Positions 195 through 22,492 of a stretch of 25,510 nt of DNA are shown here, one piece after another. The stretch lies in the IMG/VR virus record IMGVR_UViG_3300009788_002550, positions 1 through 25,510 of that record. One strand, 5' to 3'. A model generated the notes under the pieces. It did no database searches, had not been told where the DNA came from, and was given only the letters and a program-made list of their open reading frames with translations. The stretch comes from a virus. The position numbers were made by a program, and so were the translations under genes. How positions within the stretch are numbered: position 1 is the first letter of the stretch; each line of letters starts with the position of its first letter.

Positions 195-3100
195 ATGGCG
201 AACATTTGGATCGATGTCGACACGGCCGTGACGGTGCCAGTGAACGTGATGCCGTTGATCGACGATACGGATTTCAAGTCGCGGGAGGAATCGGTTACCT
301 ACAACCAGGCGGGTATGGACCTGGTGTGGAATTCCGTGTCTACGGCGGGTGTCCAAACGCAGACAGCCGTCACCCCGACAGACACGGGGGGCGATTACGA
401 TTGGGTCAACGTCGGCAACGGGATGTATAACATCGAGATTCCGGCAAGCGGCGGCGCTTCGATCAATAATGACGCCGAAGGCTTTGGGTGGTTCTCAGGA
501 TTTGCGACGGGTATCTTGCCGTGGTCTGGTCCGGTTGTCGGGTTTCGGGCTGCTGGCCTGAATAACCTATTGATCGATTCCGCATTCTCAACAACGCGAG
601 GACTGACGGGCACGGCGGTTCCGGCTGTTGCTGCTGATGGAGCGGGTGGACTACCGATCAGCGATGCTGGTGGGCTGGATCTCGACACACTATTGGGCAC
701 TCTAACCAGCCTGGCTGCTGCACCTCGCAGCGCCAACCTTCTTGATCAACTCAAGACTGTGATCGCTGTAATCGAGAGCCAGCGAGACGCGCATACACAC
801 CAGCCAGGAACCGGTAGCATCTTGTTCGTTGATGGAACGAACGGTACCACGCATGCCGGCGGAGGAGACGGCGGGGTAAGTAATCCGTACCTTTCGAGGC
901 AGGACGCACACGACAATGCCGGTACCGACTACGGTCACGACCTCTATATCCTTGTAGCGGGAGCAGCCGCATCGACGTCAGTCTACAGCGAGGATTCGAC
1001 TATTTCTAACGGCTATTCTCTATTCCGAGGTCCCGGCCGTGACTTATCACTGATGCCGACAGCGAACAACACTGTCGCGTTTACCGTGACGGGGGATGGC
1101 GCAGAGCTGTCTGGGTTCCAGATTGACGACTTCAACGGTACGGGATCGCAAGTCGGGGTACAAATCACGGATGCGGACTTCGCAAACGTTCACCACGTGT
1201 GGTTCAACGAGACGCGAGGCGACGGCGTCAACATACTCCGTGGGAGCAATTGCCAAATCGAGTCGAACCATTTCGACGGGACGGGAGTTGCTGCTTCCGG
1301 GCAGGGAATACACATTGTTGGCACGGCTGGAGCCAGCAGTGATAACTCGCTCTGCAACAATCACCTCGCCAATACAGGTGGTGATTCGATTCTAATCGAG
1401 GATGGAACGACCAACGATACCGAGATCCACCACAATACGATCCACAACGCGGGGGGCTGGGGTGTTAACGTAGGGGCGAGTTCCACAGATGCACAAGTCC
1501 ACAGCAACATTCTCGGGAACAATACCAGCGGAGACATTCAGGACAACGGAACGACGACAATTGAGAAGAACAATGTATCGTGGCTCTCGTCAACTGTGGA
1601 GGGCAGGACGCTCGACGTAACGGACACTGGATTGGTGAGCCTTGCCGCCACTGGCCTTGATGCCATAGTATCCACGGCAACGGGAATGGTCGAAATCGCC
1701 AAGGCTATTTGGGACCGACTACTGACGGCAGCGACACACAACATACCCGGTTCCGCCGGCCGTCGGTTGAGAGACCTTGCCTCGCAGATAATAGGGACGT
1801 TCGACGTGGTGTCGGCAACGGCAAACACCGTTACGCTCGATGCTACAGCAAGCGCAGTGGATGGCAGCTACGATCCATCGCAGATACTTATTACCGAAGG
1901 AACTGGATCAGGGCAAGTACGGGGAATCCTCGAATACTTCGGTGGCGCAGGCAATGGCAATGCGGCCAAGACTGCCATTCTCGATCGGGATTGGAAAGTA
2001 GTTCCAGACGGGACGTCCACGGTCGTTGTCATTGCACAGGACGGGCGCATGTCGACGAACGAAGGTCAAGTGCGTGCTGGGTCAACGACAACGGCGACAC
2101 TAAACGCCCTATCTCCGGCGGCTGATATTTCTGGGCAGACGCTTCAATTCCTCTCTGGGACGGGGCAGGATCAATCGGCACTGATTGTCTCTTATTCCGA
2201 TCCGGTAGCGACGTTTAAGGCATTGGATGTTGCCGTGGATGACACGACAGGCTACCAATTGCTGCCGACTGGGATGGTGTCTCTCGAAGCGATAAACAAC
2301 GATTTGCAATCGGCGATCGACCTGAAGGACTTTGCCGACGCTGGCTACGATCCAGGAACCAATAAGGTGCAAGGTGTCGTGCTGGTAGATACAGCTACAA
2401 CTGTGACAGTTCTCCGTGATGAGGTCGAGCGACTCCACGGCATCAGTAGGTGGCCGATCTACGGAGACGACAAGCTGTTTGCGGCTGGAGCTGGAGACAA
2501 CGGACGAAGTCGGGGACCGTGCATCGTTTGGGACGGAACCAGTTCATGGGTGTTGTACTATGTCGCTTTGGATTCTGGCAAGAACATTATCCGACGGCGG
2601 ACGAGCACGGATGGCAAAACATCATGGTCGGCTGGCACGACGGTACTGGAAGGATCTGTTGGGGGCTGGGACTCCGTTGGAGGAGTGTGGGCACCGCGCG
2701 TCTGGCGTGAAGGTGCTGGTGATTGGCGGATGCTCTATACGTCGAAGCAAGCCGACACGATCATCGCAACGGGATACGCGACCAGTGCGGACGGAATCAC
2801 GTGGGTGAAAGAAGCAACGAACCCGGTGTTGATACCGACGCTGACTTGGGAGCGAGATTCAGTGGAAGTGACCGGCGTCATCAAGATCGCCTCAACTTAC
2901 TACGCTTGGTACACGACGCTCATAACGGGTTCGCATGAGCCGGCGTCCGATCGGAAGATCGGGTACGCGACCAGCACGGATCTAATCACCTGGACGAAGG
3001 GCGGCGACCCAGTTTTCGGCGACACCGACAACCTGTCGCACCGCCAGCCGTATTACGGCTACTATAGCCCGTCCCCATTCCGAAACGGCTCGGGCTACTA

Positions 3101-3740
3101 CTACCTTGCCGTCGGTGTCTATGGCGCGAATAACGACTACACGCGGTTTGAACTATGGGAGTCCTACGAGCCGACGTTTGATCCTGATATCCGACGCCGG
3201 GTAGCTACCTTCCAGTCAGTTTCCAACGACGGCACGTCCTACCCGAAACGGGATGTCGACATCATCACGTTTGCGACCGATGACATTGGACGAGATACAT
3301 TCGTGGAGACGTCAGGCGAAATACGTTGTTATTTTGGAGCGAATCACAACGGTGTTTGGTCTACCGGACTATGCACGAAACCGACAATGGAGGACGCATT
3401 ACGATGGGTGCCGGCTATTCAAGATCCGGTCCTTGACGCCTTGCCGCATACGAGGTGGTCGATAGCTGCGGAGGCGGCGGAGGCGGATGTTTTGACGCAA
3501 GTCAATGCGGCCCTCGATACGGCAATCGCAGAGCTGGGGGTGGCTCAGCCGGCGATCACGCCGACGTTACGGACCGCCGTCATGCTCATGTACATGGCGC
3601 TTCGCAATGATTTGGACGTGAATACGAGCGACGACCCGGATAAGCTCAAGATTAAGAACGACGCGGGAACCGTCATCGCACAGAAGACACTAACGGACGA
3701 CGGCGACGATTACAATGAAGCGAAGATGGTGTCAGGATAA
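195..3740 (+). CDS. Large tailspike / receptor-binding-like protein: beta-helix plus GH43-like propeller
   Basis: This is a multidomain protein of 1181 residues. Residues 1-120 form a beta-rich N-terminal domain, with a YDWVNVGNGMYNIEIPASG segment, that plausibly anchors it to the virion. Residues about 205-460 look like a right-handed parallel beta-helix: repeated short strands with Asn ladders such as NNHLANTGGDSILI and HHNTIHNAGGWGVNV, as in tailspikes and carbohydrate-active enzymes. Residues about 755-1075 carry three blades of a five-bladed GH43/GH32-type propeller, marked by GYATSADGITW and GYATSTDLITW. The last 80 residues, with paired TDDGDDYNEAKM, are probably a tip or assembly domain. 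The protein may bind or cleave host surface glycans. I cannot assign catalytic acids with certainty, so it could be binding only. The ATG follows a GGTAGGG stretch. Confidence 0.75.
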   Translation: MANIWIDVDTAVTVPVNVMPLIDDTDFKSREESVTYNQAGMDLVWNSVSTAGVQTQTAVTPTDTGGDYDWVNVGNGMYNIEIPASGGASINNDAEGFGWFSGFATGILPWSGPVVGFRAAGLNNLLIDSAFSTTRGLTGTAVPAVAADGAGGLPISDAGGLDLDTLLGTLTSLAAAPRSANLLDQLKTVIAVIESQRDAHTHQPGTGSILFVDGTNGTTHAGGGDGGVSNPYLSRQDAHDNAGTDYGHDLYILVAGAAASTSVYSEDSTISNGYSLFRGPGRDLSLMPTANNTVAFTVTGDGAELSGFQIDDFNGTGSQVGVQITDADFANVHHVWFNETRGDGVNILRGSNCQIESNHFDGTGVAASGQGIHIVGTAGASSDNSLCNNHLANTGGDSILIEDGTTNDTEIHHNTIHNAGGWGVNVGASSTDAQVHSNILGNNTSGDIQDNGTTTIEKNNVSWLSSTVEGRTLDVTDTGLVSLAATGLDAIVSTATGMVEIAKAIWDRLLTAATHNIPGSAGRRLRDLASQIIGTFDVVSATANTVTLDATASAVDGSYDPSQILITEGTGSGQVRGILEYFGGAGNGNAAKTAILDRDWKVVPDGTSTVVVIAQDGRMSTNEGQVRAGSTTTATLNALSPAADISGQTLQFLSGTGQDQSALIVSYSDPVATFKALDVAVDDTTGYQLLPTGMVSLEAINNDLQSAIDLKDFADAGYDPGTNKVQGVVLVDTATTVTVLRDEVERLHGISRWPIYGDDKLFAAGAGDNGRSRGPCIVWDGTSSWVLYYVALDSGKNIIRRRTSTDGKTSWSAGTTVLEGSVGGWDSVGGVWAPRVWREGAGDWRMLYTSKQADTIIATGYATSADGITWVKEATNPVLIPTLTWERDSVEVTGVIKIASTYYAWYTTLITGSHEPASDRKIGYATSTDLITWTKGGDPVFGDTDNLSHRQPYYGYYSPSPFRNGSGYYYLAVGVYGANNDYTRFELWESYEPTFDPDIRRRVATFQSVSNDGTSYPKRDVDIITFATDDIGRDTFVETSGEIRCYFGANHNGVWSTGLCTKPTMEDALRWVPAIQDPVLDALPHTRWSIAAEAAEADVLTQVNAALDTAIAELGVAQPAITPTLRTAVMLMYMALRNDLDVNTSDDPDKLKIKNDAGTVIAQKTLTDDGDDYNEAKMVSG

Positions 3741-10599: not shown

Positions 10600-12015
10600 A
10601 TGACAAATCAGAACGCACTGCCCGGACCTGGCGCAACCGTTGCTAGCGACTTCCGGAACATCTTTACGTCGATCGATCATAAGGTTCTCAAGCCCGCTGG
10701 TGTCATCATTCAGGGAGCGAAGGCACGAGACCCGGGCAATACCGGCTACATCGACACGCTGCGAAGTGGCATACTCATGGGCAAGATCACCAGCGGCGGC
10801 AAGTACGCCCCGTCGATCCTCGGAACGCTCGGGGACGCCTACGACGGTGCTGCCACGCAGATGAACGTACTGAACATCCCCGAGGCGACGGAAATCGCCC
10901 GACGGCTCGGGTCGAGTGGCACGTTCAAGCTGACTGGCCCTCCTGCTGCAAATGGAACCGTCCGAACCGAAACAATCACCTATAGCGCGGTCGGTTCCGG
11001 GACGGGCGGCGACGAGGTGCAAACCTTTGTAGCCGATGCCGCATCGAGTGCCGGCTCCTACACGATCCTCCTACAGAAGCCCGACGGGACCACCGTTCGC
11101 ACGGCGTCGATTGCCTATGACGATACCCTGGCGGCCTGCCAGACTGCAATCACGCTCGCCCTCGGTGCCGTGGCCGGGTGGGTCGCATCGACCGCTGGTT
11201 CCGCCGTTCCGTTCTCTGCTGGCCCGATTGACCTGGTGTTGACAGCCAGTGGAACAGGTTACCTGAAAACAGACTTCCCGATGTGCTCGGTCGACCCCGA
11301 TTCTCTGACCGGCGTTACGACGATCACTGGAACCCAGACCACGCGGGGCATCCCGGTTGCCGGAACCATCACGGTTACGGCCGTTGGTGCCGCTGCTGAT
11401 ACGGTCCAGACCATCACGGTCGGTGGTACGTCGTCAGGCGGCACAATCAAACTAGGGTTCCGCGACGTTGCCGACCCGGCTGGCGAGATCAAGTGGACGG
11501 ATACGATCGCCTGGAGCGCAACCGAAGCGACGATGACGACCTCCGGCCAGACTGCTTTGGATAACTTGCTCGGCTCCAATGTCGTGGTTCTGTCCACGAT
11601 CGCGGATTCGGCCTCGCTGGTCATGGTTCTGACTTGGAGTGGAACCGGAGCAACGGAACTCGCACAAGAAGAAGTCCACGTCGATACGTCCGCGCTAACG
11701 GGTGCGAGCACCGTCGCGGTCGTGATGACTACCGCAGGCGTTACGGCCTCTGAGAATGACTTCGCGGCCGGTTCGTTCATCCAGCCTGTCGACGGTTCCG
11801 AGACGATCATCGGGATCATGGGCGAAGAGGCTGGGATCAAAGTTACCGACGACGCGGGTGTATCGCTCAACGTCCAGCTTTCAGAGTTCGTCATCGGCGG
11901 TCAACTGGACGCCAGCCAACTCATCCTCTGGCCGAGTGACACCAGCCTTATCGCCTGGATCAAGGCCGCGCTGCGGGCTGCTGGCTACGCCTACACATTC
12001 GACGACGTCTTTTGA
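10600..12015 (+). CDS. Head decoration-like protein interrupted by an Ig-like repeat insertion
   Basis: This 471-residue protein has terminal parts that look like two halves of a lambda D-like head decoration protein. Residues 25-75 contain VLKPAGVIIQ, GILMGKITSGGKYAPSI, and residues about 385-471 contain FIQPVDGSETIIGIMGEEAG, then FVIGGQLDASQLILWPSDTS and a last helix. Between them, residues about 105-385 are Thr/Ser/Gly-rich beta domains in at least two copies: VQTFVADAASSAGSYTILLQ with a GTGYL end, and VQTITVGGTSSGGTIKLGF with a GTGATEL end. These resemble Ig-like modules on virion surfaces. Decoration proteins stabilise the capsid, and the insert would project outward. GGAG precedes the ATG at a good distance. 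The capsid gene follows. Confidence 0.65.
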   Translation: MTNQNALPGPGATVASDFRNIFTSIDHKVLKPAGVIIQGAKARDPGNTGYIDTLRSGILMGKITSGGKYAPSILGTLGDAYDGAATQMNVLNIPEATEIARRLGSSGTFKLTGPPAANGTVRTETITYSAVGSGTGGDEVQTFVADAASSAGSYTILLQKPDGTTVRTASIAYDDTLAACQTAITLALGAVAGWVASTAGSAVPFSAGPIDLVLTASGTGYLKTDFPMCSVDPDSLTGVTTITGTQTTRGIPVAGTITVTAVGAAADTVQTITVGGTSSGGTIKLGFRDVADPAGEIKWTDTIAWSATEATMTTSGQTALDNLLGSNVVVLSTIADSASLVMVLTWSGTGATELAQEEVHVDTSALTGASTVAVVMTTAGVTASENDFAAGSFIQPVDGSETIIGIMGEEAGIKVTDDAGVSLNVQLSEFVIGGQLDASQLILWPSDTSLIAWIKAALRAAGYAYTFDDVF

Positions 12016-12066: not shown

Positions 12067-13170
12067 ATGGCTGCAACAACGTTTACCAACGTCTTGAATT
12101 TCGAGATGCTTAGCGGGCTTATCAAGGAAGTGATTGACGGCGTACCCGGCGATCTGCTTCCATCGTCATTCATGACGAGCAATGAAAGCTTCGAAGGCAA
12201 GGTCGGAACGTATGATCGGATAGCGACGACCCGACAGGCTGCGAGGATCGTGAACGCGGGCTCCCCGTCGGTCAACACCAAACTGCAAGGGATCAGCAAA
12301 CAGCCGATCACGCTGATTCACTCATTCGAGCATCAGAACCATCCAGCCGAACAGTTGATCTCGCTGCGGAACGAGGGAGGCGACGGCAAACAGACGAAGG
12401 GCGAACAGACTATAGCCGGTCAGGTGCGAGAGTTTGGCCGTAGGTTCAGTAACCTGAGACAGGGTGCCGTCTACAGCTTGCTCGCCAAGGGGGCTATCTT
12501 CGTTGGTGCTGACGGCTCCCTCCTGGCGTCCGGCTCCGGTGCGGCATACACGATCGACTTCGATGTGCCGGCGGGGAATAAGGACCAGCTAAACGTACTT
12601 GGAGACGGTGACATCCTCGACACCGACTGGACGGCAGCCGGCACTGACATCAACGCGCAGATCGAGGCACTGAAGTCAGCCGCCCGAAAGCTGACCGGGT
12701 ATCCTATCAAACATGCGTTTTACGGCACGAACGTCGCCGGATACCTATGGGCCAACACGCAGATCAAGGCAGCCATCACCGGAAGTTCGCGCACAAGTGA
12801 ACTGATGACAGCAGGCGAACTGCCAGACGGACTGCTTGGCTTGAACTGGCACCCTGTGAATCAGGCGTTTTTCGAGTTGGTAAATGGGACGGTAACCGAT
12901 TGGTTTGGAGCTAACGACGTGATTTTCACGCCGGATCCGTCGCCGGACTGGTATGACATGATTGAGGGATCACACTTTGTGCCGACTGACTTAACAGTCG
13001 GTGCCGATGCCTCGGCGATGCTGGCTAACATAGCCGAAGTCACCGGTGGGTTCTCCTATGCCGAGCTGGCGACAGATCCATTGAGCGTCAAGCATATGGC
13101 TGGTGACACGTTCTCTCCGGTCCTCAAGGTCCCCAAAGCCCTGTTTATCGGCGAAGTTCCCACGGCATAG
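12067..13170 (+). CDS. Major capsid protein (lambda E-like family)
   Basis: This 367-residue protein directly follows the decoration gene, the classic position of a major capsid protein. It shows features of the phage capsid E family: an early helix (NFEMLSGLIKEVIDGVPGD), the YDRIATTRQAARIVNAGSPS stretch, RRFSNLRQGAVYSLLAKGAI, a long spine-like helix region, AFYGTNVAGYLWANTQIKAA, and a C-terminal P-domain-like part with WFGANDVIFTPDPSPDWYDM. The family has the HK97 fold. GGAG (12055-12058) is 8 bases before the ATG. An intrinsic terminator follows 34 bases after the stop. Assignment to the E family is by recollection of its pattern; a plain capsid role is firmer. Confidence 0.82.
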   Translation: MAATTFTNVLNFEMLSGLIKEVIDGVPGDLLPSSFMTSNESFEGKVGTYDRIATTRQAARIVNAGSPSVNTKLQGISKQPITLIHSFEHQNHPAEQLISLRNEGGDGKQTKGEQTIAGQVREFGRRFSNLRQGAVYSLLAKGAIFVGADGSLLASGSGAAYTIDFDVPAGNKDQLNVLGDGDILDTDWTAAGTDINAQIEALKSAARKLTGYPIKHAFYGTNVAGYLWANTQIKAAITGSSRTSELMTAGELPDGLLGLNWHPVNQAFFELVNGTVTDWFGANDVIFTPDPSPDWYDMIEGSHFVPTDLTVGADASAMLANIAEVTGGFSYAELATDPLSVKHMAGDTFSPVLKVPKALFIGEVPTA

Positions 13171-13203
13171 TGCTCTGTAGCGGGTGGAGTCTTGCTTTCC
13201 TGG

Positions 13204-13241
13204 AGCGGCTCGGTTTCCGTCGAGGAGGCCGGGCCGCTTTT
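13204..13241 (+). terminator. Intrinsic terminator after the major capsid gene
   Basis: AGCGGCTCGG at 13204-13213 pairs with CCGGGCCGCT at 13229-13238, a 10-bp stem with one G-T wobble and a 15-base loop. T residues follow at 13238-13241. It lies between the capsid stop and the next ATG. The T-run is short, so partial termination that lowers expression of the tail genes is more likely than a full stop. Confidence 0.6.
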
Positions 13242-13253
13242 AATGGGTTTCCT

Positions 13254-13886
13254 ATGGCTGAAGACTCAGTACAAATCAAAGTCAAGCTTAACCTTGAACC
13301 GCTGGATCGGATTTCGCGCTCGCTGCGCAGGCAGTCACTCGGTGGGGAAGGTCCGGTGCGAGACACCTTCAGACAGTGGGCTGGACGGTGGCGATCATTT
13401 ACACGTCAGCGGTTCGATCGGCTGTCGAAGTTCGGTGGCGGCGAATGGGACGCCCTGGAAGAGTCCACTAAGGAAGCGCGAGCACGAAAGAAGCAAGCGA
13501 GAGGCGGCAAGAAACACAAGAAGGGCACTAAAGTCAACATAGCCGGTCGGCGATTTTCCATTCTTCGCGACAATAACTTGCTATTTGGTGCAATCTCCCA
13601 GACCTTTGCGCGGGCTTCCAAAACATGGAATAAGCCAGGCGGGCTACAAGAGGACATCAAGGAAGGAATCCGCGCTGGCTACGGTGGGCCGTCACTGCAC
13701 AAGGACAGCGCCGGCAAAACAAGCGTGGCGACAATAGCGGACATTGCAAGCTTTCACCAGACTGGGGCGGGCCACTTGCCCGAACGCAAGATCGTCGTCT
13801 CGCCTGACGACGCAACAATTAGGCGAATGAATGGCGACCTTGAGCGCGGCGTGAAGAAACTCATATCACAGGAACTTAGTCGATGA
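13254..13886 (+). CDS. Phage virion morphogenesis / Mu gpG-like protein
   Basis: This 210-residue protein fits the Mu gpG/tail-completion family. The segment ADIASFHQTGAGHLPERKIV at residues about 162-181 is the family hallmark (a helix, H-x-x-G, then P-R-x-hydrophobic). The N-terminal part has helices rich in Arg and Lys (QWAGRWRSFTRQRFDRL) and a basic stretch (KKQARGGKKHKKGTKVNI). Related proteins act in head completion or head-tail joining. The frame is open back to a GTG at 13170, but that stretch carries the terminator stem and translates poorly, so ATG 13254 is preferred even without a good ribosome site. The stop overlaps the next start (ATGA). Confidence 0.8.
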   Translation: MAEDSVQIKVKLNLEPLDRISRSLRRQSLGGEGPVRDTFRQWAGRWRSFTRQRFDRLSKFGGGEWDALEESTKEARARKKQARGGKKHKKGTKVNIAGRRFSILRDNNLLFGAISQTFARASKTWNKPGGLQEDIKEGIRAGYGGPSLHKDSAGKTSVATIADIASFHQTGAGHLPERKIVVSPDDATIRRMNGDLERGVKKLISQELSR

Positions 13887-14410: not shown

Positions 14411-15118
14411 ATGTCTATCTTATCTGGAAAAGCTGGAGCCGTAGATGGTGCGGCGATTGTTCGTAACTGGAATATCTCAACCACAGCTGACACCCAAGCC
14501 TATGTTGCCAGCAATACGCAAGGCGGTACGGGGAGGCAGATAGGCAATACGGACTGGTCTGGCGCGTACGATGCTTATGGGCACACCCCGGCCAACATGC
14601 CGGGCGAGACGTTCGAGTTCAAGGGATCAGTCCAGGGCACGACGGGCGCCGTAAGTCCAGCAAGTGGCGCGATCGTTGAATCGGTTGTGATCACATGCGA
14701 TATCGAGGGCGGGGGAATTCTCTCGCACGTTGTGAACTTCGCCGGCAATGGCGTACTGACAAAGGGGGCGGCGGTTGCGACAGACCCGACTGCCCTGATC
14801 CCGACCAGTTCGATCGGATGCGATGCGCAACTCGGCACGCTTGCAGCGAGTCCGGTGTATACAGCGATCACTGACGTTCGTGGCTGGACGTTGACGATTT
14901 CCGCTGCGAATCAGTCGTATGTGTCGAGTGATACTGCGGGCGGCACGAAGCGAACCATGGGGAACATCGACGCGACGTTGTCGATTTCTGTCTATGAGTC
15001 CGACCTCACAGCGCTGCCGGTCGAGAATGACATAAATGCCATCAGGCTCTTTGTCGATGCTAGCACCCATTGGGAAATCCTCTGGGGCATGTTCGGGAAA
15101 TCTCAGACGTCCTCGTAG
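14411..15118 (+). CDS. Major tail (tube) protein with duplicated halves; 3' end out of frame
   Basis: The 235-residue frame precedes the chaperone and tape measure genes, so it is the tail tube. The protein is an internal duplication. VRNWNISTTADTQAYVASNT with GGTGRQIGNTDWSGAYDAYG (residues 17-56) matches VRGWTLTISAANQSYVSSDT with GGTKRTMGNIDATLSISVYE (156-195). After the first copy a strand region SVVITCDIEGGGILSHVV (91-108) occurs. Its partner in the second copy is not in this frame but in the -1 frame after the stop (15088-15243). The frame here ends in ILWGMFGKSQTSS. Either the gene has an indel or the ribosome shifts to make the full-length product. Confidence 0.75.
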   Translation: MSILSGKAGAVDGAAIVRNWNISTTADTQAYVASNTQGGTGRQIGNTDWSGAYDAYGHTPANMPGETFEFKGSVQGTTGAVSPASGAIVESVVITCDIEGGGILSHVVNFAGNGVLTKGAAVATDPTALIPTSSIGCDAQLGTLAASPVYTAITDVRGWTLTISAANQSYVSSDTAGGTKRTMGNIDATLSISVYESDLTALPVENDINAIRLFVDASTHWEILWGMFGKSQTSS

Positions 15119-15243
15119 ACATCGAAACGGCGACTGTGATTGGCGCGACGCTGAATGCGAGCATGAACGGGCTGGCGGACATCGCGAGTACCGACACGAT
15201 AGGATCGATCAAAACGCCTGCGGACGTGACGTTCTGGCCGTAA
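15088..15243 (+). other. Displaced C-terminal coding segment of the tail tube gene (-1 frame)
   Basis: This segment is open from 15064 in the frame one base behind the tail tube frame and ends at TAA 15241-15243. It reads REISDVLVDIETATVIGATL followed by NASMNGLADIAS and ends ADVTFWP. It matches the end of the first tube repeat (SVVITCDIEGGG, then NFAGNGVL) in spacing and residues. Codon choice looks like the surrounding genes. It fills the 150-base gap before the next gene and has no ribosome site or obvious own start. It is best read as the missing end of the tube protein, not as a separate gene. Confidence 0.65.
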
Positions 15244-15268: not shown

Positions 15269-15742
15269 ATGACGACACGAGCAGAAGCGACCGCTGCGCC
15301 GGGTGAAGTAACCATCGGCGATAAGACATACCGTATGAGCCCGCTTACAGACCGGGACATAGGCGAGCTAGACAACTGGATACAGGCAAAGTCACTTCGC
15401 ATCGCTCGCGAAAGTATCCCGAAAGATGCGAGCACGGACGAATACAACCGGATGATTACGGCCGCGATGGTTGGCATTCAGTCTCTGACAATGTCGAGCA
15501 CGCGGGGTGCGGCTGTGATGGCTTCGGTAGATGGTTTGGCACGTGCGCTGTGGCAGGGCATTCATCCACATCACCCCGACGTAACGGTCGACGATGTGGC
15601 GTCTGCGTTATACACGGCGAAGGACATAGGCAGCGCTGCGTTTGACTTTAAACGAGTGAATCATTTTGGATCGTCAAAAAAAAAGCGTCGCCAGAAGGAC
15701 AAGAAGAGGAAGCGGAACAGAAAGAACCGACGGGCCCGGTAG
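15269..15742 (+). CDS. Tail assembly chaperone (lambda G-like, short form)
   Basis: This 157-residue protein lies between the tail tube and tape measure genes, the lambda G position. Residues 1-30 start with a beta-like EVTIGDKTYRMSPLTDRDIG segment and continue into helices (ELDNWIQAKSLRIARESIP; AAMVGIQSLTMSSTRGAAVM; DVTVDDVASALYTAKDIG). The reading ends in a very basic tail (KKKRRQKDKKRKRNRKNRRA). That tail comes from translating past a slippery A-run, so it is probably a by-product of the frameshift design. Lambda G proteins coat the tape measure during tail assembly. AGGAAAG precedes the ATG. Confidence 0.8.
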   Translation: MTTRAEATAAPGEVTIGDKTYRMSPLTDRDIGELDNWIQAKSLRIARESIPKDASTDEYNRMITAAMVGIQSLTMSSTRGAAVMASVDGLARALWQGIHPHHPDVTVDDVASALYTAKDIGSAAFDFKRVNHFGSSKKKRRQKDKKRKRNRKNRRAR

Positions 15743-15942
15743 ATGTGGGCACGCAGTACAGAGATCTTGCCGAGCGGTGTGGTTTCACGGCATCGGAAGT
15801 GGCCGACATGACACCAGCCCAGCGAGAAATGTATTACACAGGTGCGCCTTCCGGCGCGACCGAGAGCCGAGACAAGCGAACCGGAAGACCGACTGCAACA
15901 TTCCCCACACTCAATGAAGCGAGAGCATTTCTAAATGGCTAA
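15269..15942 (+). CDS. Tail assembly chaperone long form (lambda GT-like, by -1 frameshift)
   Basis: A -1 shift at the heptamer 15679-15685 (A AAA AAG) joins 139 codons of the short chaperone to an open stretch from 15685 to 15942, giving about 224 residues. The downstream part begins ASPEGQEEEAEQKEPTGPVD and continues YRDLAERCGFTASEVADMTP, then ends LNEARAFLNG. No stop lies between the slip site and the TAA at 15940-15942. The helical AERCGF--SEV segment is typical of the second chaperone domain. The long form would bind tube subunits while the short form coats the tape measure. A GTG at 15745 could start the second part alone, but no ribosome site supports that. Confidence 0.78.
15679..15685 (+). 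promoter_or_regulatory. Programmed -1 frameshift slippery heptamer A AAA AAG
   Basis: A run of nine A residues (15676-15684) followed by G supplies the canonical -1 slippery heptamer in exact phase with the chaperone frame: codons AAA at 15680-15682 and AAG at 15683-15685. After slipping, the next codon GCG starts at 15685 in the frame of the second chaperone part. I see no obvious downstream pseudoknot or strong upstream Shine-Dalgarno stimulator. Confidence 0.85.
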
Positions 15943-17707
15943 CCCAGACGTCACAATTGACCTGAAGGCGAACGACTCGAAGGCGCGCAGGATCTTGGCG
16001 CGGTTCGGTAAGTTCACCCAGGGGCTTGGACGGACGCTGGCGGGAGCATTTCGCCTAGGGCGTCAAGGCTTGGCGTCTATCGCAACCGCGGCTACGAAAG
16101 CCGCTAAGGCCCTCGCTGTTGTTGGTGCGGCGACTGTTGCGCTGGGTGGTTTCTTTCTTAAGTTATTTGCCGAGCAGGAAGATGCAGAGATCAGGCTTGC
16201 GGCAGTGATAAAAGCCACTGGTGGCGCCGCCGGTTTTACGTCAGACCAACTCAAAGAGATGGCTTCCGATCTTCAGAAGATAACGCGCGTCGGCGATGAG
16301 GTGATTCTTAATGCTCAGGCCATTCTTCTGACATTCAAAAACATCAAGGGTGACCAGTTCAGGGACGCGACGAAAGCTGCCCTTGACATGTCGGCGGTTC
16401 TTCAAAAGGAAGATCTTAACTCGGCGATACTACAGCTCGGCAAGGCCTTGAATGATCCCATTAAGGGTGTAACCGCACTAACAAGGGCCGGAGTGTCGCT
16501 AAGCGAACAACAAATTGAAATGATACAATCGTTTGTTGAGTCGAACGATATCATCAGTGCACAGAAGATTGTACTCGACGAACTGAAAGGCGAGTTTGGG
16601 GAGGTAGCGGCAGCATTGGCACGTTCGACGGGCGGGATGGTGGCTCAGTTGAGAAATCGTCTTGGCGATATTGGTGAGCAGCTAGGCAAGGCATTGGTGC
16701 CTGGACTGGAAAGAGTAATAGGGGCAGTCGATCGCGCGGCGGACACAATCGAAGAGAACCTTGACGACATCACGGCTGACATCACGGCCATGGTAAAGGG
16801 AACGATAGACGCCTTCGTGCAAATATCGCCGCACGTCGAGCTTCTTGCACGCGACCTGGCTGGATTGTTTTCCGAAGTGAATGCAGACGCGAAGGAGTTT
16901 GGTGAGAATCTTGGAATACTCGACAAGTTCTTAGGGCAGATAGGCGACGTCGTCCATACTGTCGGCCTTGGATTCAAGGCACTTCAGCGCGACATGGACG
17001 CAACGGTACTGGCTACGGTACGGGCAGCGCTGGCTGTGGCTGAGCTGTCGCAGGCGACATCTGACTTCATTCCGGCAGCGGCAGCAGTAGAAGGGATACA
17101 GAGAATACTCGGCCTACCTACAATCGACGACACAGTGGCGTTCTTGAAAGAGTTCGAGGACGAGATAACCAAGACCGCCGACAAATCAAAGAAGGCTTTC
17201 GATGAGGCCTTTCTAGGCAAGACGTTCTCAGAGCGGGTCGATGCACTCAGGAAGAAACTACAAGCCGACGCCGATAAAGCGAAAGCTGATGCTGAAGACT
17301 TCATACCGGAGCCGACTGGCCCGCCTGAATTCTTGGAGCAGTCGACGGGCCTCAAGGACGCCGGCTTGGCGGTAGCCAAGGCCCTTGGACTGTCGCTATT
17401 GGAATCGGGCACTTCCGTTGCCGAAGGGTTCAAGGCGGCAGGTATAGCCGCTGCCGATGCTGCCGAAGAAACGATAAGCAAGATCAAACCGCCCGAGACG
17501 CCGGGCTTCACTGCCGCATTCGAGGGCCTGCAATCCCTGGCGCGTCGGATCGACCTGGCTGGAGCTTCCGTTAGTCCCGAGGAACGCACAGCCAAGGCTG
17601 CCGAGAAGGGCGCGGCGGAGGGTAAGCGCACTGCTGACGGGGTCGGGAAACTTGTCGAGTTGGTCACGAAGGGTGCCGGAGAAGTCGTCGCCGTCTTTGG
17701 CACATAG
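15935..17707 (+). CDS. Tail tape measure protein
   Basis: This 590-residue protein directly follows the chaperone pair, overlapping the end of the long form by 8 bases. It is Ala/Lys-rich and helical. Residues about 45-80 are a hydrophobic stretch (ALAVVGAATVALGGFFLKLF), typical of the membrane-interacting part of tape measures. Residues about 95-260 match prophage tail-length proteins: VIKATGGAAGFTSDQLKEMA, ILLTFKNIKGDQFRDATKAA, and AILQLGKALNDPIKGVTALT with RAGVSLSEQQ. The rest is coiled-coil-like. By the usual 0.15 nm per residue rule the tail would be roughly 85-90 nm long. The protein fixes tail length and is ejected with DNA. Confidence 0.9.
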   Translation: MANPDVTIDLKANDSKARRILARFGKFTQGLGRTLAGAFRLGRQGLASIATAATKAAKALAVVGAATVALGGFFLKLFAEQEDAEIRLAAVIKATGGAAGFTSDQLKEMASDLQKITRVGDEVILNAQAILLTFKNIKGDQFRDATKAALDMSAVLQKEDLNSAILQLGKALNDPIKGVTALTRAGVSLSEQQIEMIQSFVESNDIISAQKIVLDELKGEFGEVAAALARSTGGMVAQLRNRLGDIGEQLGKALVPGLERVIGAVDRAADTIEENLDDITADITAMVKGTIDAFVQISPHVELLARDLAGLFSEVNADAKEFGENLGILDKFLGQIGDVVHTVGLGFKALQRDMDATVLATVRAALAVAELSQATSDFIPAAAAVEGIQRILGLPTIDDTVAFLKEFEDEITKTADKSKKAFDEAFLGKTFSERVDALRKKLQADADKAKADAEDFIPEPTGPPEFLEQSTGLKDAGLAVAKALGLSLLESGTSVAEGFKAAGIAAADAAEETISKIKPPETPGFTAAFEGLQSLARRIDLAGASVSPEERTAKAAEKGAAEGKRTADGVGKLVELVTKGAGEVVAVFGT

Positions 17708-20703: not shown

Positions 20704-21405
20704 ATGCAGTGGAGCTATGGGGTACTAACAGTGCCCTCCAGGAAAGACGGGCTCTTTCCCGACACCGTAGCCAGTCTGTCGGCGGCCGGGTTTCCTAACC
20801 CTAGGCTGTTTATCGACGGTGCTGAAGACGGACGCGAGTACAGCCACATTGGCAGCCCCGCGTCAATTACGTGTCACAGTCCGGCAGTGGGCATCTTTAG
20901 CAATTGGCTGCTGGCGTTGTGGGAGTTGTTCTATCAGTCGCCTCACGCAGATCGATACGTGCTGTTTGAAGATGACATTATTGCCTGCAAGAATCTTCGG
21001 CAGTACCTAGAACTAACTGGGTATCCTCTTCGTGGCTTCTGCAACCTCTACACCTGGCCGCAGAATGAGATGTTGTTTTCCAAACATCGCGGAACGGAGA
21101 AGGGCTGGTGTCCTTCCCTTCAGCGAGGGCAAGGGGCGGTAGCCTTGATGTTTGACAACTACACTGCCTCGGCAATACTGACGAACCATCAATTCATCGA
21201 GCAGGCCAAAGGCACAGACGATGAACGTATCTGCATTGACGGTGGGATTATGGTGACGATGAAAAACATGGGCTGGAAGGAGTACGTTCACAGTCCGTCC
21301 CTAGTGCAGCACGTGGGAATGACGAGCGTGCTTGGGCATGATCCGTTTCCGCAGTCAACGTCTTTCCCCGGCGATGAATTCGATGCACTGGAGCTAGTAG
21401 GATGA
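20704..21405 (+). CDS. Glycosyltransferase-like protein 1
   Basis: This 233-residue protein, from the ATG at 20704, has features of a GT-A type glycosyltransferase: an early YGVLTVPSRKDGLFPDTVAS segment, RYVLFEDDIIA near residues 84-94 where EDD can serve as the DXD metal motif, a GQGAVALMF strand near 142-150, and DGGIMVTMKNMGW near 179-191 followed by SLVQHVGMTSVLGH near 199-212. The last motif resembles the C-terminal His segment of enzymes such as the LPS GT25/GT54 type. The frame is open to a TTG at 20662, but ATG 20704 avoids overlapping the fibre gene and has GGTGGG ahead. Its substrate is unknown. Its stop overlaps the next start (ATGA), so the pair is coupled. Confidence 0.7.
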   Translation: MQWSYGVLTVPSRKDGLFPDTVASLSAAGFPNPRLFIDGAEDGREYSHIGSPASITCHSPAVGIFSNWLLALWELFYQSPHADRYVLFEDDIIACKNLRQYLELTGYPLRGFCNLYTWPQNEMLFSKHRGTEKGWCPSLQRGQGAVALMFDNYTASAILTNHQFIEQAKGTDDERICIDGGIMVTMKNMGWKEYVHSPSLVQHVGMTSVLGHDPFPQSTSFPGDEFDALELVG

Positions 21406-22379
21406 AATGTTCGATTTGTATGGCCACTCACAACAAGGCAGAGATATTGCCATTGGTGTTCGAGAGCATACTCAAGCAATCGCCCCCATTTGAATGGGAA
21501 CTTGTCGTCGTCGATGACAGCAGCATTGACGACACTCCGCAGGTGTGCGGCGCGTATCCTAAGGTGAGGTATCATCGGATCGACAGAGGTGAGGGCTTTC
21601 ACAATCCGGCGATTCCGCGAAACCTTTCATACAAATTGGCAAGTGGGGATGTGTTGATCTGTCAGTCCGATGATGTGGTACATGTCTCCCTGAACGTTAT
21701 CGAGTCACTTGCCACGGGGCTCAAGCCGGGAACCTTTTCTATTGCCGACGTGTGGAATACAGACCCCGAAGGCAATCGCAAACCCCTACGGGAATGGCCG
21801 TCGATAACTCAATTGACCGGCCCTGGTTTTCCGCGACCGTTCTTTTTCCTTGGTTCCATCTTGCGCAGTCACATGTATGAAGCAGGCGGCAACGACGAAC
21901 TCTATACCGGGTACGGTTGCGAGGACGACGCTTTCGCGGCGTCCCTTATTCATGGGTTGGGATTGAACCCGAGGTATGTTGACGTACTCGGGCGCCATCT
22001 CGACCATTCGCGACCAGCTAACCTCAGTGAGATGACCCAGCACAGCGAGGCTCGCTTGGCCGAAAGAAAGCGTGCCTGTGTTGCCGGCGAACAGTCCTGG
22101 CTGTCCCCTGATCCGGGCTGGGAATACGTTGCAGGGCAGCCGCTAATGACGCCGATCGATCCCCGGGCGTACCTTGAATCGGCATCGGCCTCTGGTGGCC
22201 TCTCTAACGTCACGCCAGACGACACGGCCGACGTATCGAATGTTGCGTCGAATGCCCCTAACTGGTCAACCAGGCATGCACGGAGCTATTTCATGCCCTT
22301 GGCGAGTGCGGGGCGAAGGCCAGGCGGTTCCACGTCCGCCGATTACTCGGGCGTTGGCCTCCGTGCGAGCGGATGCTAA
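21402..22379 (+). CDS. Glycosyltransferase family 2-like protein
   Basis: This 325-residue protein has a clear GT2 fold. It opens CSICMATHNKAEILPLVFES, then ELVVVDDSSIDDT near residues 33-45 (nucleotide-binding Asp), NPAIPRNLSYKLASGDVLIC near 68-87, and QSDD near 88-91 as the DXD metal motif. GYGCEDDAFA near 170-179 fits the catalytic base (ED) of GT2 enzymes. HLDHSR follows near 199-204. From about 225 the sequence becomes simple in composition (Ser/Ala/Arg-rich), perhaps a disordered tail or decayed end. The ATG overlaps the stop of the first glycosyltransferase. It likely modifies virion fibre, host surface sugar or another acceptor. Confidence 0.85.
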   Translation: MKCSICMATHNKAEILPLVFESILKQSPPFEWELVVVDDSSIDDTPQVCGAYPKVRYHRIDRGEGFHNPAIPRNLSYKLASGDVLICQSDDVVHVSLNVIESLATGLKPGTFSIADVWNTDPEGNRKPLREWPSITQLTGPGFPRPFFFLGSILRSHMYEAGGNDELYTGYGCEDDAFAASLIHGLGLNPRYVDVLGRHLDHSRPANLSEMTQHSEARLAERKRACVAGEQSWLSPDPGWEYVAGQPLMTPIDPRAYLESASASGGLSNVTPDDTADVSNVASNAPNWSTRHARSYFMPLASAGRRPGGSTSADYSGVGLRASGC

Positions 22380-22440
22380 TCCCTGCCTGATCTTGATTCA
22401 ATACCCTTCCTCTGGGGTAGCCGAAAAGTATTTCGGAATT

Positions 22441-22456
22441 CTCGTAAAATAACGAG
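22441..22456 (+). promoter_or_regulatory. Palindromic operator-like site O1
   Basis: CTCGTAAAATAACGAG is an imperfect palindrome with CTCGT and ACGAG ends. It lies 33 bases centre to centre upstream of O2, close to three helical turns, consistent with cooperative repressor binding on one face of the DNA. It also forms half of a longer inverted repeat (22447-22459 with 22471-22483). Confidence 0.55.
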
Positions 22457-22464
22457 GATGGCTA

Positions 22465-22492
22465 TTGACAATCCTCGTTATTTAACGAGAAT
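22465..22492 (+). promoter_or_regulatory. Predicted promoter for the small-gene/XRE operon
   Basis: TTGACA at 22465-22470 is a perfect -35 hexamer. GAGAAT at 22487-22492, after a 16-base spacer, is a 4-of-6 match to the -10 hexamer. The palindromic site O2 lies in the spacer, so a bound repressor would block polymerase. The first gene downstream starts at 22543 with a ribosome site. Confidence 0.55.
22474..22489 (+). promoter_or_regulatory. Palindromic operator-like site O2
   Basis: CTCGTTATTTAACGAG is a perfect 7-bp palindrome around a TT centre. It shares CTCGT--TAACGAG with O1 and overlaps the promoter spacer and first bases of the -10 region, as in autoregulated repressor genes. The HTH gene two ORFs downstream is the natural candidate ligand. 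Confidence 0.6.

Follow-up and report, generated by a model that had tools for sequence, protein, structure and literature searches.

The tail tube gene of this uncultured phage occupies positions 14411-15118 of the window, by which we mean the whole 25,510-nucleotide stretch of DNA analysed here; this ORF and the parts of it described below all lie on the plus strand. As read in the record the gene is truncated, encoding 235 residues with the C-terminus ...WGMFGKSQTSS (...FVDASTHWEILWGMFGKSQTSS) and ending at a premature TAG in the starting frame (15116-15118). A complete first tube domain (copy 1, 14411-14770) is followed by the in-frame portion of a second tube domain (copy 2, 14834-15097), by the GGGAAATC tract in which the frame breaks (15095-15102), and by the displaced end of copy 2 together with a C-terminal tail in the -1 frame (15100-15243). 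After a stop at 15061 the -1 frame stays open as far as a TAA at 15241-15243, and encodes ISDVLVDIETATVIGATLNASMNGLADIASTDTIGSIKTPADVTFWP.

The tube gene lies just upstream of a chaperone-like gene (15269-15942) and a tape measure gene (15935-17707), the latter matching PF06791 (E 1.7e-8) and phrog_27166 (E 2.3e-34). A neck/tail-completion-like gene is present at 13170-13886; in the related contig G001, introduced below, its homologue (16673-17260) separates the chaperone gene from the tape measure gene, a difference in gene order. At 195-3740 the window encodes an 1181-residue protein with a right-handed beta-helix match, of which about 408 residues (692-1100) are missing in the G001 homologue, where the flanking parts are adjacent and in one frame.

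An intact relative and the position of the break

A previous sequence-only reading of this DNA had proposed that the tube gene is broken by a -1 frame change and that its missing end is visible downstream. Open alternate-frame stretches of 59 codons occur at a level of about 14% among the genes of the window; such openness is not rare, and the case for a displaced end therefore rests on homology. The only close relative found in the collections searched was locus L001 of the IMG/VR contig IMGVR_UViG_3300037245_001138 (G001), which is 64% identical. Its tube gene is one uninterrupted ORF of 279 residues, with the C-terminus ...FWEIRWGIFGDISDINIDIETAAMVGATLNASLNVIENIDSTDTIGAIVNPATSDFWPPA, and encodes in frame the same end that is displaced in the window, bearing out the proposal. 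The match of the window to L001 runs in the 0 frame as far as WGMFG and resumes in the -1 frame at ISD, and the displaced tail compared by itself with L001 gave a z score of 23.6 (0 of 2000 shuffles). Differences from the relative in the -1 frame are rich in third positions (16, 11 and 28 at the first, second and third codon positions, respectively). The dN/dS ratios before and after the break are similar, a comparison that decides nothing, as synonymous sites are saturated, and it covers the entire period since the divergence of the two phages.

Two approaches locate the switch. By tblastx against G001, the window matches in frame 2 up to 15097 and in frame 1 from 15097, whereas G001 stays in one frame across the corresponding site (15885/15886). 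A codon-usage Viterbi model, which makes no use of a homologue, places the switch at 15095/15096. The 0-frame match ends with the codon at 15095-15097, and the -1 match begins with the codon at 15100-15102. These codons are separated by two bases in place of the three of a full codon, and the tube gene in the record is thus one base short of an open frame. The switch, which had been expected within about 15064-15118, is in this way pinned to some eight bases at 15095-15102.

The downstream segment (15070-15243) could also be taken for a separate small gene, with a TTG at 15070 opening the -1 frame. However, none of the start codons in this segment has a clear Shine-Dalgarno-like sequence upstream, and in L001 the segment forms the C-terminus of the tube protein. 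Homologues that end naturally and carry the downstream segment as a gene of its own, which the sequence-only reading had named as the evidence that would speak against a broken gene, were looked for and not found, the one close homologue being the single ORF of L001. We dropped the separate-gene reading because L001 fuses the segment in frame, and now regard it as scarcely credible.

Searches for tube homologues in INPHARED phages and in genome_contigs found none, and a pattern search of viral_contigs that allowed a length change at the break found no near-identical copies. Searches with the capsid protein and the protein encoded at 10600-12015 brought in two further relatives, L004 and L011; the L011 contig stops short of its tube gene.

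A two-domain tube protein

The window protein is predicted to be a tandem two-domain tube. Comparison of copy 1 with copy 2 gave a z score of about 11 (0 of 1000 shuffles), in agreement with the duplication that had been noticed by eye, and the same comparison within L001 gave 6.7. The accompanying claim, that the internal repeat predicts the true frame with no recourse to a database, did not hold: for the tail segment the repeat is not significant (129 of 1000 shuffles), and relatives were needed.

More distant contigs encode one-domain tubes at the equivalent operon position, namely L004 (130 residues) and L013 (122 residues), the latter with a sister, L016, at 74% identity. L004 matches both copies of the window protein (z 19 for copy 1 and 14 for copy 2), as does L013 (z 24 for copy 1). 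The displaced IETATVIGATLNASMNG has its counterpart in ETGELLGATLTIEANG, the final strand of L013 (6 of 2000 shuffles), so that one-domain relatives carry the displaced strand in frame at their end. The break accordingly lies inside the second tube domain and removes the end of that domain, including its final strand.

Judged from these comparisons, the window protein is a tail tube protein, its link to known tubes being an indirect one through L004, which matches PHROG 1407 (phrog_1407, major tail protein; E 3.3e-9). The window protein itself gave no match to Pfam or PHROG models at the thresholds used, and a profile search of the PDB returned no match to any chain. A predicted model of L013 (pLDDT 78.6) gave best Foldseek matches that, as listed, were mostly tail tube proteins, but with E values of 4.2e-3 or weaker, and PilZ barrels were equal to them in a second look. 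T5 pb6 was not among the matches listed in either L013 fold search, which excludes nothing. An AlphaFold model of the two-domain relative had a pLDDT of 30.5 and was left out of the analysis.

Indel or recoding

The sequence-only reading had left two options for the break, an indel in the phage or its assembly and an unusual recoding site giving a short and a long tube protein. In the second of these, programmed -1 ribosomal frameshifting or other recoding would yield tube proteins of 235 and about 277 residues, as might be suggested by the open -1 frame across the overlap, the conservation of the displaced end, and the existence of tail tube recoding in SPP1 and Listeria phages. No in-phase X_XXY_YYZ heptamer was found in the overlap (15064-15118), however; the GGGAAAT present there is, as had been stated, in the wrong phase for a -1 shift from the tube frame, and the sole in-phase slippery heptamer of the tube gene, at 14761, is outside the overlap. 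Nor is there an unusual RNA fold downstream, the stretch 15098-15200 being ordinary with a z score of -0.14 in a test of pseudoknot-free structures. The two-frame arrangement is not kept in the one close relative, since L001 is a single ORF and needs no shift. The short form would moreover miss the end of a tube domain, where SPP1 instead appends a whole domain to a complete tube. Each virion requires hundreds of copies of a tube protein (PMC6316719), and a low-efficiency shift would therefore be expected to leave most subunits incomplete.

The same phage offers an internal contrast. About 600 bases downstream of the tube break, the tail assembly chaperone gene (15269-15942) carries a canonical in-phase A_AAA_AAG at 15679-15685 (the phase was worked out by hand), from which the -1 frame runs on to 15942. 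G001 has the identical heptamer in phase (L001 4266-4272) and the same layout (L001 3853-4520), and the codon-usage model also detects this switch, at about 15650. In E. coli few sequences are as prone to shifting as A_AAA_AAG (PMC5009743), and the chaperone gene is likely to use a programmed -1 frameshift of the gpG/gpGT type. The chaperone thus has the site expected of such a system, which the tube break does not resemble. We consider programmed frameshifting or other recoding at the tube break very unlikely. Marginally less probable again is a non-canonical -1 recoding event, peculiar to this lineage, that takes place within the second tube domain and gives two tube proteins of which one has an incomplete second domain.

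A second frame break, likewise of one base relative to G001, was found by tblastx at 22229, towards the 3' end of a glycosyltransferase family 2 gene (21402-22379). Beyond it, the differences are concentrated in third codon positions of the displaced frame (18, against 9 and 7 at the other two), and a TAA follows. In the stretch corresponding to 22152-22379, G001 has an intact Cys-rich segment (CCVGCPSLVNQAC...); the window carries the TAA in that frame. The presence of two one-base breaks within 25.5 kb points to consensus error or decay more than to anything peculiar to the tube gene. At the 22229 site, however, the additional stop codon suggests that the break may be real decay and that the two breaks need not share a cause. 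Further along, at 22438-22492, is a long RNA hairpin (-29.8 kcal/mol, z -5.2), perhaps a terminator, operator or leader element, in a DNA stretch conserved with G001.

Taken with the intact relative, the located switch, the lack of an in-phase slippery site and the position of the break inside a domain, this second break favours the indel among the two options. We think it highly probable that the frame break is an ordinary one-base indel in the GGGAAATC tract, with no dedicated decoding mechanism. A single base would have been lost in the tract at 15095-15102 of the two-domain gene, which cuts off the second tube domain ahead of its final strand and probably leaves a tube protein that does not work. 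The missing base would stem either from a consensus or assembly error or from a real, recent loss-of-function mutation, an error being somewhat the likelier of the two. Against an indel, the tract consists of just GGGAAA and is no long error-prone homopolymer, and the intactness of the gene is known from one close relative. Up to 21.4 kb, the codon model and tblastx show no other unexplained break in coding sequence, so that the error rate, if this is an error, is low.

Comparison with known systems

The record should not be read as a new recoding site. What it does point to is a group of phages, so far undescribed, in which one-domain tail tubes occur beside fused two-domain ones; these would form a small natural series for studying the origin of tandem tubes of the T5 type. 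PHROG 1407 is matched by the one-domain relative L004 and not by the window protein at the thresholds used. In T5, pb6 has tandem tube domains and forms a trimeric, pseudo-hexameric ring (PMC9022992). The window protein resembles pb6 in having two tube domains fused in one polypeptide, but differs in that it has no PDB match, no Ig-like domain was seen in it and its second domain is frame-broken.

As in the tails of SPP1 and Listeria phages, coding in the tube gene continues in another frame past the first stop. In SPP1 (gp17.1 and gp17.1*) the shift is +1, takes place at the CCCUAA of the stop, and appends a whole FN3 domain after the complete tube (PMC6316719, PMC9022992), whereas the change in the window is -1, occurs without a shift site, and interrupts a tube domain. 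Indels in assemblies are recognised as a common cause of falsely truncated proteins (PMC13087279), and the SPP1 record itself has received several corrections of the single-base type (PMC6316719). The tube gene shares with such indel-truncated genes a single-base break and an intact homologue elsewhere, and the break in the window may have a similar origin.
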